In this document: positions 1,012 through 51,123 of the stretch, piece after piece
Position numbering within the stretch: the first letter of the stretch is position 1
Layout of the letters: each line of letters begins with the position of its first letter
Source of the DNA: Rhizobium mesoamericanum STM3625
GTDB taxonomy: Bacteria > Pseudomonadota > Alphaproteobacteria > Rhizobiales > Rhizobiaceae
NCBI RefSeq assembly: GCF_000312665.1
Contig: NZ_HF536772.1
Location: 808,798-872,797 of the forward strand
Direction: 5' to 3'
DNA length: 64,000 bases
Program-made: the position numbers and the translations under genes
Notes under the pieces: generated by a model
Told to the model about the DNA's origin: nothing
Seen by the model: the letters and a program-made list of their open reading frames with translations, nothing else
Database searches by the model: none

Positions 1012-1030
1012 CATAACCACTCAGCGACGC
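1002..1030. terminator. weak hairpin between convergent holA and parB
   Basis: An inverted repeat GCGTCGTT / AGCGACGC (one G-T pair, 13-base loop) spans the two stop codons. There is no U-tract on either side. It may slow transcription from both directions, but this is a guess from structure alone. Confidence 0.25.
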
Positions 1031-1905
1031 TCAAGGAGCCGGCAGATTTCCTCCAATTGTTCCAACGACTTATAGGAAATTCGGATCTGACCACCGCTTG
1101 CTTTGTGGTTAATCGTCACGTCCAGGCCTAGTGCATCCGACAGCGTGCGCTCCAAGGCAAGCGTATCCGAATCCTTCTGGTCCTTTTGATGTGATAGTGC
1201 TTTCGGTTCGGACTGAGCCTTGATGTCATTCTGGGCCAAGCGCTCAGCGTCGCGCACTGACATGCCCTTTGATACAATCGCTCGGGCTAGCGCTGTCGGG
1301 TCCGAGGTCGGCACAAGGGCTCGGGCATGTCCTGCCGAGAGACTTCCGGCCGCCAAAAGGTCCCGAACCGGCTCAGGCAACTTCAGAAGGCGGAGCGAAT
1401 TCGCCACATGACTACGGCTCTTTCCGATGATTTCGCCGAGGTCGTTCTGCGTATAGCCATACTCCGCCATCAATTGCTCGTACCCCAGTGCCTCTTCAAG
1501 CGGGTTCAGATCGGAACGCTGAACGTTCTCGACGATTGCAATTTCAAGAGCAGTCCTGTCATCAACGTCGCGAACGATCACAGGAATCTCGATCAGACCC
1601 GCAAGCTGCGCGGCGCGCCACCGCCTTTCGCCGGCTATGATCTCGAATTGGTTATTCCTCAGCGTCCGAACCACAACGGGCTGCACGATACCATGCTGAC
1701 GAATCGAACTGGCGAGCTCATGCAACTCACCATCATCGAAGGAGCGTCGCGGATTGCGCGGATTGCGGCTGACAAATTCAATCGGAACCATCCGATCGGC
1801 GCTGACATCTGGTCTTGCGGCATCAACCGGAATCGGTTGGTCCATCTCGCCGATCAATGCGGCTAGGCCGCGGCCAAGTCTTCTTTTAGAGACGTCATCG
1901 TTCAT
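1021..1905 (-). CDS. parB: chromosome partitioning protein ParB (CTPase, parS-binding)
   Basis: ParB binds parS, slides along DNA as a CTP-bound clamp, and works with ParA to move sister origins apart. The 294-residue protein starts with the ParB N-terminal signature (KRRLGRGLAALIGE). It then has the CTP-binding region with the GERRWRAAQLAG box (about residues 92-103), a helix-turn-helix around LGEIIGKSRSHVANSL, and a C-terminal dimerisation domain. It lies 27 bases after parA on the same strand, giving the usual parAB operon. The likely targets, parS-like palindromes, are present at 3327, 5324, 5360, 11665 and 51108. Confidence 0.98.
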   Translation of the reverse strand: MNDDVSKRRLGRGLAALIGEMDQPIPVDAARPDVSADRMVPIEFVSRNPRNPRRSFDDGELHELASSIRQHGIVQPVVVRTLRNNQFEIIAGERRWRAAQLAGLIEIPVIVRDVDDRTALEIAIVENVQRSDLNPLEEALGYEQLMAEYGYTQNDLGEIIGKSRSHVANSLRLLKLPEPVRDLLAAGSLSAGHARALVPTSDPTALARAIVSKGMSVRDAERLAQNDIKAQSEPKALSHQKDQKDSDTLALERTLSDALGLDVTINHKASGGQIRISYKSLEQLEEICRLLERR

Positions 1906-1932: not shown

Positions 1933-2727
1933 TCAAGCCGCGAGGCGCTGGCGCTCGCGCTGTATCACCTCTGACGCCAACTGGAGGTATGCCTGGCTAC
2001 CGGCACATTTCAAATCATAGAGGATTGCCGGCTTGCCATAAGAGGGTGCCTCTGACACTCGAACATTTCGCGGAATCAACGTATGGTAGACCTTTTCCCC
2101 GAGATGAGTGCGGACATCATTGACGACCTGCTGCGCAAGGTTGTTGCGCGAATCGAACATCGTCAAAACAACGCCTTGAATGTCCAAGCGGGGGTTAACA
2201 GTGCGCCGGACTTGATCAACCGTTTCTAGCAGTTGGCTCAGCCCCTCCAATGCAAAAAACTCGCACTGCAGCGGCACAAGTACTGAATGAGCGGCGGCCA
2301 TGGCGTTCATCGTGAGTAGATTGAAGGACGGTGGGCAGTCAACGAGAATATAGGAAAACCGAAAAGCCTCTTCTTTAGAAAGCGCCTTCTTAAGCTTGAA
2401 GACGCGATCGGTTTGCCCAGCGATCTCCATCTCAATGCCGAGCAAGTCCATCGTCGACGGAACAATATAGAGGTTTGGCACAGCAGTTTCCTGCGAGACC
2501 TCCTCGATCCCGTAGTCTTCCAGCAATAGATCATAAGAAGATAGCCGCCGATGCTTACGATCGATCCCAAGCCCGGTGCTCGCATTTCCCTGAGGATCGA
2601 GGTCGATGATCAAGACGCGCTCGCCAATTGCAGCGAGGGCTGTGGCCAAGTTTATGGCGGTCGTGGTCTTACCGACGCCGCCTTTCTGATTTGCAATGGT
2701 GATTATACGATTTCGTTCGCCAGCCAT
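1933..2727 (-). CDS. parA: chromosome partitioning ATPase ParA
   Basis: This is a Walker-type ATPase that binds the nucleoid and provides the gradient on which ParB-parS complexes move. The deviant Walker A motif KGGVGKTT lies near residue 15-22, with LVDCPPSFNLL as Walker B. The frame extends to a TTG at 2733. I chose the ATG at 2727, which gives 264 residues starting MAGERNRI and fits the family's short N-terminus. It follows rsmG by 17 bases, so mnmE-mnmG-rsmG-parA-parB is probably one long minus-strand transcript, as in many alphaproteobacteria. The loci nearby (candidate oriC at 10 kb, several parS) fit chromosomal rather than plasmid ParA. Confidence 0.97.
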   Translation of the reverse strand: MAGERNRIITIANQKGGVGKTTTAINLATALAAIGERVLIIDLDPQGNASTGLGIDRKHRRLSSYDLLLEDYGIEEVSQETAVPNLYIVPSTMDLLGIEMEIAGQTDRVFKLKKALSKEEAFRFSYILVDCPPSFNLLTMNAMAAAHSVLVPLQCEFFALEGLSQLLETVDQVRRTVNPRLDIQGVVLTMFDSRNNLAQQVVNDVRTHLGEKVYHTLIPRNVRVSEAPSYGKPAILYDLKCAGSQAYLQLASEVIQRERQRLAA

Positions 2728-2744
2728 AGCCAAAGCCCGATCTG

Positions 2745-3362
2745 TTAAGACGCACGCCGGAGATTGAAGAATTCCAAGATAACTGAATCCCTCTCAACAG
2801 CACTCTTATGTTCTAACAGATCGAATCTCCAGCCACCATGCGCTTTCTGGATCTCTGTCCGATAATCCCGGCCTTTGTGAAAGTAGGCCCGAAGATTTGC
2901 ATTGCGTTGTGACCACGGTTCGACATAGGCGAAGAGTTTTCCGAGGTCGGCCAGAGCGCGCGCGGAAACGAAGTCGCAGTGTTGGACGATCGATGGTGCA
3001 TCCTCAATCCGCACGGCGTGAATAGAGCCCCTTCCACCTGTCTCACGAAGAGCCGTTCTCAGAAAGGCTGCCTTTTTATGATTGCTCTCGACTAGATGAA
3101 CCCACCCATCGCCATGTTCCGCCAGCATAATGGCCGTCACAATGCCCGGAAAACCACCGCCGCTGCCCAAGTCAACCCAGGTGAGCGGTGCTGGCTGCAA
3201 CTGAAAAATCTGTGCAGAGTCGGCAATGTGGCGGCTCCATGCATCGTCAAGCGTCGACGGTGCCGAAAGATTGATCGACTTGGCCCATTTCTGAAAAAGG
3301 GCCACAAAGTGCTCGAGACGCTCCTGTGTTTCACGTGAAACACGCCGGCCGTTTAGATGCAT
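2745..3362 (-). CDS. rsmG: 16S rRNA (guanine-527-N7)-methyltransferase RsmG (GidB)
   Basis: RsmG methylates N7 of G527 in 16S rRNA using S-adenosylmethionine. The SAM-binding motif [13 protein letters not shown] is clear, followed by [19 protein letters not shown] and the SARALADL segment. The frame opens further upstream to 3440, but that would overlap the end of mnmG. The ATG at 3362 ([12 protein letters not shown]) gives 205 residues, the usual length. The parS site at 3327-3342 lies inside the coding sequence and specifies part of the N-terminal RVSRET residues. It lies 31 bases after mnmG and 17 bases before parA. Confidence 0.96.
3327..3342. other. parS: parS site 1 (perfect 16-bp palindrome)
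   Basis: The sequence TGTTTCACGTGAAACA is a perfect match to the consensus ParB-binding site, and with its flanks it extends to an 18-bp palindrome (3326-3343). It lies inside the 5' end of rsmG, 1.4 kb from the start of parB. A perfect 16-mer of this kind is not expected by chance in 64 kb. Confidence 0.95.
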
Positions 3363-5323: not shown

Positions 5324-5339
5324 CGTTTCACGTGAAACC
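5324..5339. other. parS: parS site 2 (14 of 16 bases)
   Basis: The bases CGTTTCACGTGAAACC contain the full 14-bp core GTTTCACGTGAAAC of parS, differing from the 16-mer only at the outermost base on each side. The site lies in the mnmE-mnmG gap, only 20 bases from site 3. Confidence 0.92.
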
Positions 5340-5359: not shown

Positions 5360-5375
5360 TGTTTCACGTGAATCA
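5360..5375. other. parS: parS site 3 (15 of 16 bases)
   Basis: The bases TGTTTCACGTGAATCA differ from the parS consensus at one position. The site covers the stop codon of mnmE (5373-5375). Read on the minus strand it is identical to site 4 in aroE (TGATTCACGTGAAACA). It forms a close pair with site 2, centre to centre 36 bp. Confidence 0.92.
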
Positions 5376-8238: not shown

Positions 8239-8775
8239 TCAGAACGGCTTGACCACGACAAGAATGACGATCGCTATCATCAACAGGGTGGGCGCCTCGT
8301 TCATGAAACGCCAATAACGCGCCGATCTACGGTTTTCATCGCGTTCGAACGTTTTGACGGCACGAGAGAAAAACAGGTGAATGCCAGTCAGAAGCACCAC
8401 GAGGCCTAACTTCGCGTGCAGCCATCCGCCGTGAAAACCATAAAGCGACCAAGCGAGATAAAGACCGAGGATCCAAGTCAGCATCATCGCCGGATTCATG
8501 ATTACCTTGAGCAGGCGACGCTCCATCACCTTAAAGGTCTCCGACTGCGTCGAACCCGGTTCCGCATCGGTATGATAGATGAACAGCCGCGGCATGTAGA
8601 AGAGGCCGGCCATCCAAGAAATCACCGCTATAATATGCAGCGCCTTGATCCAGAGATAGAGATCATCAGGATGCCAGAGAAATAGCCCAACAGCCAGGAA
8701 TGCGAAGAACAGAATCGCGAAATGCGCGCGACGACGCGCATAGACGCCGGGCTTGTCGTCAGTCTGCTTTTCCAT
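8239..8775 (-). CDS. hemJ: protoporphyrinogen IX oxidase HemJ
   Basis: HemJ is the membrane-bound, oxygen-independent type of protoporphyrinogen oxidase, the step before ferrochelatase in haem synthesis. The 178-residue protein has about four membrane segments. The conserved histidine region ([20 protein letters not shown]) and the HAKL motif, whose His/Lys are important in the family, are both present. The start is taken as the ATG at 8775 ([10 protein letters not shown]); the frame is open to 8850 but would run deeper into hemE. It overlaps the end of hemE by 17 bases, which suggests translational coupling of two enzymes of the same pathway. Confidence 0.95.
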
Positions 8776-9811
8776 CAGCTCGCCTCCAGCCGCGGACATG
8801 CTCGACGAGCAGCTGAACGTTTTGAGGGTCGGCCTGCGGCGTAATGCCATGCCCGAGATTGAATATCAGCGGGCCGTCACCAAGCTTCTCAAGGATGTCA
8901 TTGATACCCTCCCGGAGCGCCAAGCCGCCGGCAACGACCCGCATCGGATCGAGATTGCCCTGTACGGCTCCGTCCTTTTGCAGCTCGACGGCGAAATCCA
9001 GAGGCACAGACCAATCAAGCCCGATCGCATCCGCTTTCGTTTTCCGGCGATAATCCTTCAGCAGGAAGCCGGCGCCCTTGGCGAAGGCGATGACCCGAGC
9101 ATCAGGCCGACGCGCCTTGATGGAGGCGATCATCCGCGCAACAGGTTTCACCGCGAATGCCTCAAACTCCCGCTCCCCCAGAACCCCTGCCCAGGAATCG
9201 AAAATCTGCACCGCATCGGCACCTGCATCGATCTGCGCAACCAAATAGTCGGCCGAAACCTCTGCCAGGACGGCAAGCAGATGTTCGAAGGCCTTCGGAT
9301 GCTTGTAGGCAAAGAGACGTGCAGGAGCTTGGTCGGGTGTGCCATGGCCGGCGATCATGTAGGTCGCAACCGTCCACGGAGCACCGCAGAAGCCAAGCAG
9401 GGTCGTCTCGGCAGGCAGCTCGCGCCGCAAGCGCTCTACCGTTTCGAGAACAGGTTTGAGGTAGTCAATGATATGATCTGTCTTGATCCCATCGATTCCG
9501 CTTTCGTCGATTGGATCCATCTCCGGTCCGTGCCCCTCTGTGAAGCGAACGTTGCGCTTCATTGCATCCGGGATAACCAGGATGTCAGAGAAGAGAATGG
9601 CCGCATCAAAGCCGTAGCGGCGAATGGGCTGGAGAGTAACCTCCACAGCATGCTCAGGAGAATAACAGAGATCAAGGAAACTTCCGGCCTTCACCCGCGT
9701 CTCCCTGTACTCAGGAAGGTATCGTCCCGCCTGCCTCATCAGCCAGATTGGGGGAGGGCTGAGAGTTTCGCCGTCCAAGACCCTCATGATTTTCCGGCGG
9801 CTTTCAACCAC
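8759..9811 (-). CDS. hemE: uroporphyrinogen decarboxylase
   Basis: HemE removes four carboxyl groups from uroporphyrinogen III to give coproporphyrinogen III in the cytoplasm. The signature [20 protein letters not shown] and the [13 protein letters not shown] block are clear. The reading frame begins with GTG at 9811, preceded by a good AGGGAAG site. This keeps the conserved [10 protein letters not shown] start, which an ATG at 9787 would cut. The protein is 350 residues, the normal length. The gene borders the putative origin, as hemE does in Caulobacter and in rhizobia. Confidence 0.97.
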
Positions 9812-10031
9812 GCGCTTCTTCCCTATAAAAAAACTAAGATATTTTAAAACGTTTCTATTTCTTAGAGTCTGTTCCTATCAAGGATTAAAATTCATCCACC
9901 GCCGGAGCCTTTTGTCGCGCCTTACCAAGCTCGCAGCAATTGAGCGGCGGTTTGTTTGCATAAGATCGAGGAAAGTTAGAAAAAGGCAAGTTATTCCAAA
10001 TGGATAAAAGGCCTTGCAGGTGAGGTCGAGC

Positions 10032-10040
10032 TGTGGAAAA
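10032..10040 (-). other. DnaA box, 8 of 9
   Basis: TTTTCCACA on the minus strand differs from the consensus TTATCCACA at one base. It is the leftmost of the three strong boxes, which are spaced about 38 and 51 bp apart. Confidence 0.65.
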
Positions 10041-10069
10041 AACATAGATCATGCTCGAACTGTCAGCAG

Positions 10070-10078
10070 CTATCCACA
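10070..10078 (+). other. DnaA box, 8 of 9
   Basis: CTATCCACA differs from the consensus only at its first base. It points in the opposite direction to the boxes on either side. Confidence 0.7.
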
Positions 10079-10120
10079 GAACCAACACGTCGCGTTTGTC
10101 ATCTCCCCTGAAATTCGATT

Positions 10121-10129
10121 TGTGGATAA
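10121..10129 (-). other. DnaA box, perfect
   Basis: TTATCCACA on the minus strand is the strongest class of DnaA-binding site (identical to E. coli R1/R4). It lies 86 bases before the ppsR start codon. Confidence 0.85.
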
Positions 10130-10214
10130 GGTGGCATGTTTTCCCTTGCCTAACAGCCGTCGGGTCTCTTAGCTCTCCATTGTCCAGTCTTTTCAACAGG
10201 CCACGGAAAATAGC

Positions 10215-11036
10215 GTGGAGAACCGCACGAACTTCTTCCATCTGCATTTGATTTCTGACTCGACCGGAGAAACGCTAATTTCCGCCGGACGCGCGGCATC
10301 CGCTCAATTCAAGTCCGCGCAGCCGATCGAGCACGTCTATCCGCTTGTCCGCAATCGCAAGCAGCTTTTGCAGGTTCTTCAATCCATCGACAGCCAGCCG
10401 GGTATCGTTCTCTACACGATTGTCGACCGCGAGCTTGCGACTTTCATTGACCAACGCTGCGCAGAGATGGGTGTTGCGTCGGTGAACGTGCTGGAACCCG
10501 TCATGAACGCATTCCAGATCTATCTCGGTGCACCGTCGCGTCGGCGGGTCGGCGCCCAGCACGTGATGAACGCAGGTTATTTCGCCCGCATCGAAGCACT
10601 TAACTTCACGATGGATCATGACGATGGTCAGATGCCGGACGACTATAACGATGCCGATGTTATAATCATCGGCATCAGCCGGACGTCCAAAACGCCGACG
10701 AGCATCTACCTTGCCAATCGCGGCATCAAGACCGCCAATATCCCAATCGTTTACGGTGTACCGCTTCCAGAAACCTTGTTCGCGGCGACCAAGCCTTTGA
10801 TTGTCTGCCTGATCGCCACGACTGACCGCATTTCTCAGGTCCGCGAGAACCGTATCCTCGGGGCAACACCGGGTTTTGATCGCGGGGAATATATTGACCG
10901 AGCCGCCATATCAGAGGAGCTGAAATACGCGCGATCGCTATGCGCCCGGCACAATTGGCCACTCATCGACGTGACGCGCCGCTCCATCGAGGAGACGGCG
11001 GCTGCAATTGTTGCTCTCCGTCCTAAGCTGCGTTAA
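10215..11036 (+). CDS. ppsR: pyruvate, phosphate dikinase / PEP synthase regulatory protein (bifunctional kinase-phosphorylase)
   Basis: This DUF299-family enzyme switches pyruvate,phosphate dikinase or PEP synthase off and on by ADP-dependent phosphorylation and Pi-dependent dephosphorylation of a threonine. The 273-residue protein starts with GTG ([20 protein letters not shown]), and the family P-loop [11 protein letters not shown] is near residue 155. The product is the RP001-type protein that flanks the origin in Caulobacter. Rhizobia have pyruvate,phosphate dikinase, so that is the likelier partner, but the target is not visible here. The next gene, maf, starts 31 bases downstream of the ppsR stop. 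Confidence 0.93.
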
Positions 11037-11067: not shown

Positions 11068-11667
11068 ATGACACCCAAACTTGTTCTCGCATCCTCCAGT
11101 CCGTTCCGCCATATGCTGATGCACAACGCTGGCCTGGCGTTTGAGGCCCATGCAGCTCGGATCGACGAGCGGGCAGTCGAAGCGCCCCTTGCACGAGATG
11201 GCGCAACGCCGGATACCGTGGCGCTCGTTCTCGCCAAGGCCAAAGCGAAGGAGGTCAGTGACCGTTTTCCGGCCTGCCTTGTCATCGGCTCGGATCAAAC
11301 GATGTCTCTCGGCTCACAGACCTTTCACAAGCCTAGGGACATGGCCGATGCCGCGAACCACCTTCTAATGTTGTCGGGTAAGACCCACCGGCTGAACAGC
11401 GCGATTGCGATTGCCTATGACGGTGACATCGTCTGGGAGCATGTTTCACACGCAGAGCTTACAATGCGTTCGCTCGACCCCGACTTCATTCAACGGCATC
11501 TGAAGCGCGTCGGAGAGAAAGCGCTTGCGAGCGTTGGCGCCTACCAGCTCGAGGGAGAGGGGCTTCAATTGTTTTCACGGATTGATGGCGACTATTTTAC
11601 AATCCTGGGGTTGCCGCTTTTGCCGTTGTTGGAGAAGCTGAGAGAATTGGGTGCGATTGATGGATGA
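11068..11667 (+). CDS. maf: Maf-like nucleoside triphosphate pyrophosphatase
   Basis: Maf proteins hydrolyse non-canonical or modified nucleoside triphosphates to monophosphates, and several are linked to division arrest. The N-terminal LASSSPFR motif, the VIGSDQT catalytic block and the GAYQLEGEG segment are all present. The frame opens at 11008, but that would overlap ppsR; the ATG at 11068 ([14 protein letters not shown]) gives the usual 199 residues. The exact substrate (m7GTP versus UTP/dTTP type) cannot be told from these motifs. The stop overlaps the aroE start by 8 bases. Confidence 0.93.
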
Positions 11668-12517
11668 TTCACGTGAAACATTTGGGCCGCGGGCCTTCGT
11701 CACGGGGTTTCCTATCAAGCACTCCCGGTCACCTCTCATTCATGGCTACTGGCTGAAGACACTCGGAGTGCCAGGATCATACCGCGCCCAAGAAGTTGCG
11801 CCGATCGATTTTCCGGCTTTTGTTGCCTCATTAAAGAGCGGCGAGTCGGGCTTTGTCGGTGGTAACGTGACCATCCCGCACAAGGAGATGGCGTTCAGAC
11901 TCGCCGATGATCCGGACACGCTTTCAGAAGAACTTGGCGCCTCTAATACGCTTTGGATGGAGGAGGGCCGGCTCAAGGCGACGAACACGGATGGGCGTGG
12001 CTTTACTGCAAATCTTGATGAGAAGCATCCCGGCTGGGACAAGGCCCAGTCGGCTGTGGTCCTCGGTGCCGGTGGCGCGAGCCGGTCGATCATCCAGGCG
12101 CTGCGCGATCGAGGCATCAAGGAAATTCATCTGGTCAACAGAACGATTGAACGTGCCAAGGAATTGTCAGATCGCTTCGGACAGAGCGTAAACGCGCATT
12201 CGTTGGCGGCTCTGTCGGAAGTCATGCACGGTGCCGGCCTTTTCGTGAACACGACTTCACTGGGCATGGACGGTGAGGATGCACCAGTGATCGACTTTTC
12301 GCCGCTGCTGTCCGATGCAGTTGTGACGGATGTCGTCTACGTCCCTCTGAAGACGCCTTTTCTTGTCCAAGCCGAACAACAAGGATTTGCCGTTGTCGAC
12401 GGTCTTGGCATGCTGTTGCATCAGGCTGTTCCAGGCTTCGAGAAGTGGTTCGGGCATCGCCCCCATGTCGATGAGAAGCTACGAACGCTCATTATCCGGG
12501 ACATGGACAAGCACTGA
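11660..12517 (+). CDS. aroE: shikimate dehydrogenase (NADP+)
   Basis: AroE reduces 3-dehydroshikimate to shikimate in the aromatic amino acid pathway. The substrate-binding motif [16 protein letters not shown] and the NADP-binding [12 protein letters not shown] (near residue 135) are clear. The frame is open from a GTG at 11651; I chose the ATG at 11660 ([10 protein letters not shown]), giving 285 residues. The start lies inside the end of maf, and the next gene coaE starts on the last base of the stop (TGATG), so maf-aroE-coaE-dnaQ look translationally coupled. A parS-like site covers codons 2-7. Confidence 0.96.
11665..11680. other. parS: parS site 4 (15 of 16 bases)
   Basis: TGATTCACGTGAAACA differs from the consensus only at the third base. 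It starts on the maf stop codon and encodes the DSRET residues at the start of AroE. It is 1.5 kb to the right of the putative origin, on the side away from parAB. Confidence 0.9.
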
Positions 12518-49139: not shown

Positions 49140-49480
49140 GGTATTCATCTCCGTCATCTATGCGCGTCTCCAGGAATTTTGAAGGTCCCCCAGGCGGCCT
49201 TTCTGAACCGGATGCGCTTATGGGGATAAAGGTGGAACAAATTGTGGCAAAGATAAAGGGTGGGATTGTTGTAAAGTTTTGATGGCAACCAAAAGCTGCA
49301 TGGGAACTTGGCCGAGCTAATTCCGATTCAAACGATTTAAAATATCGCGGGAAAATTTAAATCGATTAATAGTTTGATATCACTAGATTTTATTGATTTT
49401 GCTCTATTGCGTTTTAAAAAAACCGCCCGTACGGTCGCCGGGAGTTCTTAACGGCACGAGCCTCAAGGAAGGAAATGACC
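49140..49480. promoter_or_regulatory. chvI-pckA divergent control region with two LacI-like palindromes
   Basis: These 341 bases hold no supportable gene. They become A+T-rich toward pckA. Two imperfect palindromes with the central CG typical of LacI/GalR operators are present: TTCAAACGATTTAA (49327-49340) and TTTAAATCGATTAATA (49356-49371), 30 bp apart centre to centre. PckR, a LacI-family protein, is a known regulator of pckA in Sinorhizobium, and ChvG-ChvI affects pckA in Agrobacterium. Assigning either palindrome to a factor is inference. Confidence 0.5.
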
Positions 49481-51107: not shown

Positions 51108-51123
51108 TGATTCACGTGAAACC
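51108..51123. other. parS: parS site 5 (14 of 16 bases)
   Basis: TGATTCACGTGAAACC keeps the TTCACGTGAA centre of parS and differs at the third and last bases. It shares its first 15 bases with site 4. It lies 41 kb from the putative origin and overlaps the left arm of the pckA terminator. Confidence 0.75.

Follow-up and report, generated by a model that had tools for sequence, protein, structure and literature searches.

Gene neighborhood of the hemE-ppsR gap

The window analyzed in this study, a stretch of 64,000 nucleotides of Rhizobium mesoamericanum STM3625 (C1:808,798-872,797), lies on contig C1 (4,132,041 bp) of a 6.46-Mb genome in seven contigs. It contains holA, parB, a ParA-like gene, rsmG, mnmG, mnmE, rho, hemJ, and hemE, followed across a divergent intergenic gap by ppsR, maf, aroE, coaE, and dnaQ. 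The parA and parB genes are located 7-9 kb from the gap, and dnaA is encoded away from it, at C1:1,226,162.

1021-1905, minus strand: ParB (TIGR00180 above cut-off)
1933-2733, minus strand: ParA-like partition ATPase (ParA-type matches, all under curated cut-offs)
8759-9811, minus strand: hemE (TIGR01464)
9812-10214: hemE-ppsR intergenic gap of 403 bp, proposed chromosomal oriC
10215-11036, plus strand: ppsR, PPDK/PEPS regulator (COG1806; NF003742)

The gap, described in the initial annotation as free of genes, is indeed bounded by hemE on the minus strand and ppsR on the plus strand. A mechanically called antisense ORF (9885-10247, minus strand, 120 aa) overlaps most of it and probably arises by chance. 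By PpsR, the best-matching named relatives were Rhizobium sp. R711 (98%) and other Rhizobium, which identifies the sequence as part of a Rhizobium chromosome. A divergent hemE was located 374-471 bp from ppsR in 68 of 70 loci of the family Rhizobiaceae (own locus included), 278-878 bp from it in 62 of 70 loci from elsewhere in the class Alphaproteobacteria, and 350-425 bp from it in all 80 named loci; the two family and eight class loci that were dropped had no hemE within the fetched flank. Genomes without a ppsR match were left out (46 of 199 in the family and 53 of 142 in the class), and of the genomes that do have ppsR, 83 of 153 in the family and 19 of 88 in the class lay outside the sample.

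The deposited chromosome of Rhizobium johnstonii 3841 begins 473 bp before ppsR. For the chromosomal oriC of Sinorhizobium meliloti, the consulted part of PMC11476347 points to Sibley et al. 2006 and uses an oriC of 477 bp as its reference. According to the text available from PMC1914354, experimental mapping placed the origin of Caulobacter (Cori) in the interval from hemE to COG1806, in line with the placement of the Caulobacter origin at this locus in the initial annotation, and the consulted text of PMC2275245 states that Ori-Finder counts hemE among its origin indicator genes.

DnaA boxes in the gap

Four DnaA-box matches in the gap are described below with their positions relative to ppsR in other family gaps and their conservation in the genus.

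10032-10040, minus strand: DnaA box, one mismatch (box with at most one mismatch at -165 to -200 in 35 of 68 family gaps; 0.904 in genus)
10070-10078, plus strand: DnaA box, one mismatch (box at -130 to -150 in 37 of 68 family gaps; 0.760 in genus)
10121-10129, minus strand: perfect DnaA box, TTATCCACA (box at -90 to -97 in 58 of 68 family gaps; 0.939 in genus)
10190-10198, plus strand: weak DnaA-box-like site, two mismatches (box with at most one mismatch at -24 to -26 in 20 of 68 family gaps; 0.983 in genus)

The perfect box and the two 8-of-9 boxes reported earlier were all recovered in place and span 98 bp. Four further boxes have two mismatches (9892, 9955, 9999, and 10190), that at 9892 reading TCATCCACC, and the inverted repeat at 10071/10114 corresponds to two DnaA boxes in opposite orientation. 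Three boxes with at most one mismatch were reached in none of 5000 first-order Markov simulations of the gap. In 1,144,000 bases of the strain's own sequence (the window plus 54 sampled stretches), which held 93 boxes of this kind, the gap was the only 403-bp span with three of them. Perfect boxes alone were not enriched, with 15 genome-wide (10 on C1) versus 23 for the reversed pattern; it is the cluster, and not the number of perfect boxes, that stands out.

Across the family, boxes with at most one mismatch numbered 195 in the 68 gaps, whereas each of 20 simulated sets gave 2-10. The observed boxes keep fixed distances from ppsR, and a single gap (L096) was without any. The CtrA motif TTAA-N7-TTAA was absent from the gap and was present in 3 of the 68 family gaps. 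Folding the gap as single-stranded DNA gave no better result than shuffled sequences (z 0.60). The earlier suggestion that the spread of weak and strong boxes could be a useful species-level model is weak, given a box pattern that is family-wide and a most conserved part across the family that lies at 9850-9889. Within the genus, the weak 9-mer at 10190 (0.983) is as conserved as that block (0.973).

parS sites, GC skew, and the second skew switch

Eight places in the genome matched TGTTTCACGTGAAACA, which we take to be the parS consensus, with at most two mismatches; six of them fell within 803-860 kb of C1 and the others at 373 and 707 kb, and no such site was found on contigs other than C1.

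3327-3342 (C1:812124): perfect parS
5324-5339 (C1:814121): parS-like, two mismatches
5360-5375 (C1:814157): parS-like, one mismatch
11665-11680 (C1:820462): parS-like, one mismatch
51108-51123 (C1:859905): parS-like, two mismatches

From 0 to 0.819 Mb, GC skew was negative in 11 of 11 segments, of which 10 were sampled stretches and one was the window's initial 10 kb, and it was positive in both window segments to the right of the gap, with the cumulative minimum in the window at about 11 kb. The right arm showed weak skew between 0.88 and 1.72 Mb, where 4 of 9 stretches were positive and 5 of 9 slightly negative, followed by positive skew in 10 of 10 stretches at 1.9-2.675 Mb. Skew was then negative in 8 of 8 stretches at 2.68-3.06 Mb and slightly negative in a ninth (3.06-3.08 Mb), and positive in 9 of 9 stretches at 3.08-3.94 Mb and in 5 of 7 at 3.96-4.12 Mb. 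The skew check proposed in the initial annotation, run here on samples, thus bore out a minus-to-plus turn at the gap. One other such turn, the chief sign against the gap, appeared at about 3.07 Mb, coinciding with a segment that is inverted relative to the Sinorhizobium and Shinella records.

This second change of sign, located between 3.06 and 3.08 Mb, with the uniformly positive stretches up to 3.94 Mb, could also mean that the true origin lies there or that the contig carries two origins, and the C1 markers at 0 and 3.09 Mb were without a colinear match. Synteny was examined by blast of 8-kb C1 markers against chromosome records filed among plasmids, namely four Sinorhizobium records (three of which look nearly identical) and one Shinella record. 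In Sinorhizobium sp. C101, the gap region was found at 3.44 Mb on the plus strand and the markers of 0.2, 2.0, and 3.0 Mb at 2.89, 0.99, and 1.99 Mb, all on the plus strand, whereas the markers of 3.2 and 3.8 Mb were found at 2.77 and 2.29 Mb, both on the minus strand and in reversed order. Shinella sp. PSBB067 showed the same pattern; for the 2.0-Mb marker, S. meliloti was absent among the best six matches listed. With the 3.2- and 3.8-Mb markers reversed in all five records and those of 0.2, 2.0, and 3.0 Mb colinear together with the gap, a segment of about 1 Mb in the left arm is therefore inverted in the genome or in the assembly. The reversed skew of C1 at about 3.07-4.1 Mb (loci L115-L125, L070, and L072) fits a recent inversion confined to a single replichore, or else a misassembly. 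Additionally, no parS-like site was located at about 3.07 Mb, the sampled sequence around it held no box trio, and C1 carried no RepA of repABC type above cut-off, such genes being found on other contigs only. An origin at the second switch, alone or as one of two, is thus very improbable.

The two markers without a colinear match were uninformative: the best Shinella match of the 0-Mb marker was one gene covering 12% of the query on the opposite strand at 1.39 Mb, and the 3.09-Mb marker was matched in ABC-transporter genes (20%). A search for 16S rRNA, aimed at the inversion breakpoints, found no gene in this 100%-complete assembly, and as the control search also missed that of Caulobacter, the result carries no weight for the breakpoints. 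At least three 5-kb bins carry 100 N each; because of these and the missing 16S match, rRNA may be masked or missing in the assembly. KOPS-like GGGNAGGG occurred 435 times in forward and 286 times in reverse orientation in the genome, and the first places, those listed, were all on one strand. Two RepA genes of repABC type above cut-off were found on one contig (C2:1164934 and C2:1255458), and C2 is perhaps a fused or two-origin secondary replicon.

The gap shows the position, box cluster, A+T richness, and skew switch with parS and parAB of an origin of the hemE/ppsR type; these sequence features, their conservation, and their chromosome position are direct observations. Because the box cluster, gene neighborhood, clustered parS sites, skew switch, and conservation agree, we infer that the gap is the DnaA-dependent origin of this Rhizobium chromosome, an ordinary member of the known hemE/ppsR class (probability roughly 0.93). 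The same assignment in the initial annotation is supported by the skew turn, the parS cluster, the nearby parA and parB, and the conserved gap and boxes. The origin of this Rhizobium chromosome would thereby be located, and the sampled family conforms to the published rule on the locus.

A conserved block at the hemE end of the gap

The hemE end of the gap contains the following features.

9824-9865: A+T-rich tract adjoining the conserved block, putative DNA-unwinding element
9850-9889: non-coding block with the highest family-wide conservation, located 39-78 bp upstream of hemE
9865-9869: GAGTC, the gap's single GANTC site (CcrM type)
9870-9878 and 9879-9887, minus strand: two degenerate tandem DnaA-box-like 9-mers, putative DnaA-binding sites

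The GC content of the gap was 0.447 versus 0.58-0.60 in the sampled stretches. The 50 bp from 9824 are 80% A+T, second in the window to a site near 49,350. The most A+T-rich 50-mers (82%) and 100-mers (74%) of the window lie at 49319-49425, outside the origin. As for the A+T patch reported as bracketed by inverted repeats, the patch stands, and the repeat has arms of only 6 bp (CTAAGA at 9834-9839 and TCTTAG at 9860-9865), which were read directly; the computed inverted-repeat search used a minimum length above 6 bp. Across the genus, the left arm differs from the majority sequence.

When the 384 20-mers of the gap were compared with the 67 other family gaps, 23 had a median best mismatch of at most five, and all of them fell within 9846-9887. 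In 67 Rhizobium-group rows, that of the window among them, the majority base had a mean frequency of 0.973 in the block and 0.752 over the gap as a whole, and a 21-mer of the block was present in a single copy in the genome at up to three mismatches. This moves the focus from the canonical DnaA boxes, which are more variable between species, to the least variable 40-bp block. We found no description of the block in the literature searched on its letters and on oriC with GANTC, and subscription papers may hold one.

Read on the plus strand, the A+T tract runs into GAGTC (9865-9869), TGTTCCTAT (9870-9878), and CAAGGATTA (9879-9887), followed by TCATCCACC at 9892. Many other alphaproteobacteria read ...GGATGCC, TGTGGATAA, and CGGGGATNN or similar in succession. 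An anchor for this arrangement exceeded the 95% shuffle level somewhere in the gap in 48 of 62 class and 63 of 68 family gaps. Within these, the anchor was at most 175 bp from hemE in 33 of 48 class gaps and 62 of 63 family gaps. Compared with E. coli R1 and its next nine bases, positions 9870-9887 agreed at 12 of 18 in the window and at 14 of 18 in the close-relative consensus; 14 of 18 was reached in 0 of 20,000 shuffles in fixed register, for a comparison that was picked after seeing the sequence. The first 9-mer of the window, TGTTCCTAT, is far from the DnaA-box consensus. Because of the resemblance to the alphaproteobacterial and E. coli R1 arrangements, positions 9870-9887 may be read as a tandem pair of degenerate DnaA boxes bordering the proposed unwinding tract. 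A TGTGGATAA-CGGGGATTA-like motif after a C-poor tract with GTAG/GTTG steps was also seen on the hemE side of many alphaproteobacterial gaps (e.g., L147, L193, and L145), and a motif of this kind may serve origin opening in alphaproteobacteria generally.

Alternatively, the block could carry an IHF site in its right half, since TATCAAGGATTAA at 9876-9888, the near match of the initial annotation, was confirmed one mismatch from WATCAANNNNTTR, which we take to be the IHF consensus; the gap holds no exact match. However, ATCAA changes to ATCGG or ACGGG in distant family members with the flanking block kept, and the TGTGGATAA-CGGGGAT-like sequence near the same gap end in many other alphaproteobacteria fits DnaA boxes better, which makes an IHF site improbable.

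A position in or near the hemE leader would allow the block to be an RNA element. The consensus fold of 16 aligned sequences, however, gave four pairs at -0.9 kcal/mol and no covarying pair, and no Rfam family reached the gathering score in the window; such an element is scarcely credible.

The distance of the block from hemE is promoter-like, and its minus strand reads TTGATA (9876-9881) with GACTC downstream. It may therefore be mainly the hemE promoter, read leftward, with the GANTC between -35 and -10, hemE under CcrM/GcrA control, and transcription as the source of the conservation; GcrA is described in the consulted part of PMC11514494 as a methylation-sensitive regulator usually acting with CcrM. 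Against this, a search for the sigma-70 type gave no match at 9700-10300 on either strand, distant family members lose TTGATA (CCCGATT or similar) and keep GANTC-TGT, and a promoter alone would rarely keep 20 bases at a median of one mismatch across the family. A block that is mainly a promoter is thus possible, if rather unlikely. Origin opening is the function that we prefer, with hemE transcription, or both together, as the other choices, and the block would then be the opening edge of the origin.

Several other ideas about the block were rejected or found no support. A replacement in which DnaA-trios of other alphaproteobacteria were lost in Rhizobiaceae was not supported, as the published NAN rule held in 7 of 34 anchored class rows versus 29% in shuffled ones (28 of 62 class gaps fell under the anchor cut-off in this analysis). 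With the tandem-box anchor only, 7 of 68 family rows reached three NAN trios in some phase and 5 of 68 in register, versus 11.9% in shuffled rows; the counts are at or under the shuffled expectation, and therefore neither the family nor the class set is enriched. The window has one NAN trio in register beside the tandem boxes. Alignments testing the block for homology with the E. coli 13-mers gave P of about 0.0003 for the window, 0.009-0.015 for the close-relative consensus, and 0.69-0.76 for the distant consensus, in a comparison picked afterwards. A class-wide exact pattern in the distant-family spelling, which the window does not match, was found in 11 of 385 genomes versus 13 reversed-control matches, and one of its 11 loci (L141) had hemE and ppsR beside it.

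The CcrM-type site at the junction

The single CcrM site of the initial annotation proved to be the only GANTC of the gap, at 9865. The first 9-mer has a GANTC immediately next to it in 64 of 68 family gaps and in all 66 Rhizobium-group loci; the anchor behind these two counts contains bases of the GANTC itself. The named set includes 14 further loci, 8 of which share the arrangement. When the anchor had no base of the GANTC in it, the site was still found in 49 of 68 family versus 1 of 58 class loci, and at the strictest cut-off in 46 of 60 versus 0 of 38. The background density of GANTC in family gaps is about 1% per position, and because the rows are related, the 64 are not 64 independent events. 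Among the family exceptions, L094, L105, and L108 read TTATTATTATAGTC or similar, and L104 is probably mis-anchored. In three Xanthobacteraceae MAGs (L285, L287, and L288), GAGTC or GAATC stands directly before TGTTGT near hemE, at a weak anchor, which suggests that such a GANTC junction might also occur outside Rhizobiaceae.

The genome encodes a CcrM homologue with a RAMA domain (PDB 6pbd CcrMI, E 2.8e-157), so that the GANTC of the gap and the enzyme are both present and the site is a predicted CcrM target. According to the part of PMC3973325 consulted, Caulobacter does not need CcrM to control initiation, even though its origin contains several GANTC; excess CcrM is said there to give extra chromosomes. 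For Agrobacterium, the consulted text of PMC11514494 states that depletion or excess of CcrM leaves ori1 numbers not significantly changed and changes those of ori2. Because of these two reports, as far as their consulted text goes, control of initiation by methylation is disfavored. The literature searched gave no role for the fixed CcrM-type site of the block.

Proposed working of the origin

DnaA would occupy the ppsR-side boxes at 10032, 10070, and 10121 and the weak site at 10190, and its assembly would extend to the hemE-side edge, where the degenerate tandem boxes at 9870-9887 abut the A+T tract. The tract at 9824-9865 is predicted to melt, allowing replisomes to load. The GANTC at 9865-9869 stands at the junction of the presumed melting tract and the first degenerate box; it would pass from the fully to the hemi-methylated state once the origin fires, and for this reason it could mark a newly fired origin.

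A further, speculative proposal, which we consider unlikely, is that Rhizobiaceae have a specific opening module in which an A+T edge, almost invariant and with a CcrM GANTC at its end, is fused to the two degenerate tandem DnaA boxes, where many other alphaproteobacteria have a C-poor tract before TGTGGATAA-CGGGGAT, and that the methylation state of the single junction site tunes the opening or re-initiation of the main chromosome. Such tuning would perhaps be redundant, which could be why global CcrM depletion did not bring it to light. A direct effect of methylation at an alphaproteobacterial main origin thus becomes testable by one base change.

Comparison with known origins

Sinorhizobium meliloti Ak57 resembles R. 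mesoamericanum in its 405-bp hemE/ppsR gap with the same block and GAGTC, but has no perfect box and instead three one-mismatch boxes (TGTGGATGA, TTGTCCACA, and TTATCAACA); as far as the consulted part of PMC4433202 goes, S. meliloti likewise has no CtrA motif. The Cori of Caulobacter crescentus is alike in its position between hemE and COG1806, its A+T-rich region, and its several moderate and weak DnaA sites, according to the text available from PMC1914354, PMC4468827, and PMC4285127. It differs in its five CtrA sites and TGATCCACA G-boxes, as described there, whereas the gap studied here has no CtrA motif and a perfect TTATCCACA.

The edge between the DUE and R1 in E. coli oriC also consists of an A+T tract followed by TGTGGATAA-CAAGGATCC; R1 reads ...CCC, TGTGGATAA, and CAAGGATCC in succession, and the close Rhizobiaceae consensus TGTGGGTAT-CAAGGATTA accounts for the 14 equal positions of 18. 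The methylation site there is GATC, in contrast to GANTC here, and the sequence from the A+T tract to the box differs; any common descent of the element would be hypothetical. In the basal unwinding system, DnaA boxes likewise adjoin the unwinding tract, but there a DnaA box must have three or more NAN trios in a row within 16 bp, whereas the window has one in register. The consulted text of PMC8287927 gives predicted trios for 85% of origins and suspects deviant ones in the remainder. Taken together, the origin type and its locus were already known, and what is added here is a family-wide block at the putative opening edge with a fixed CcrM-type site.
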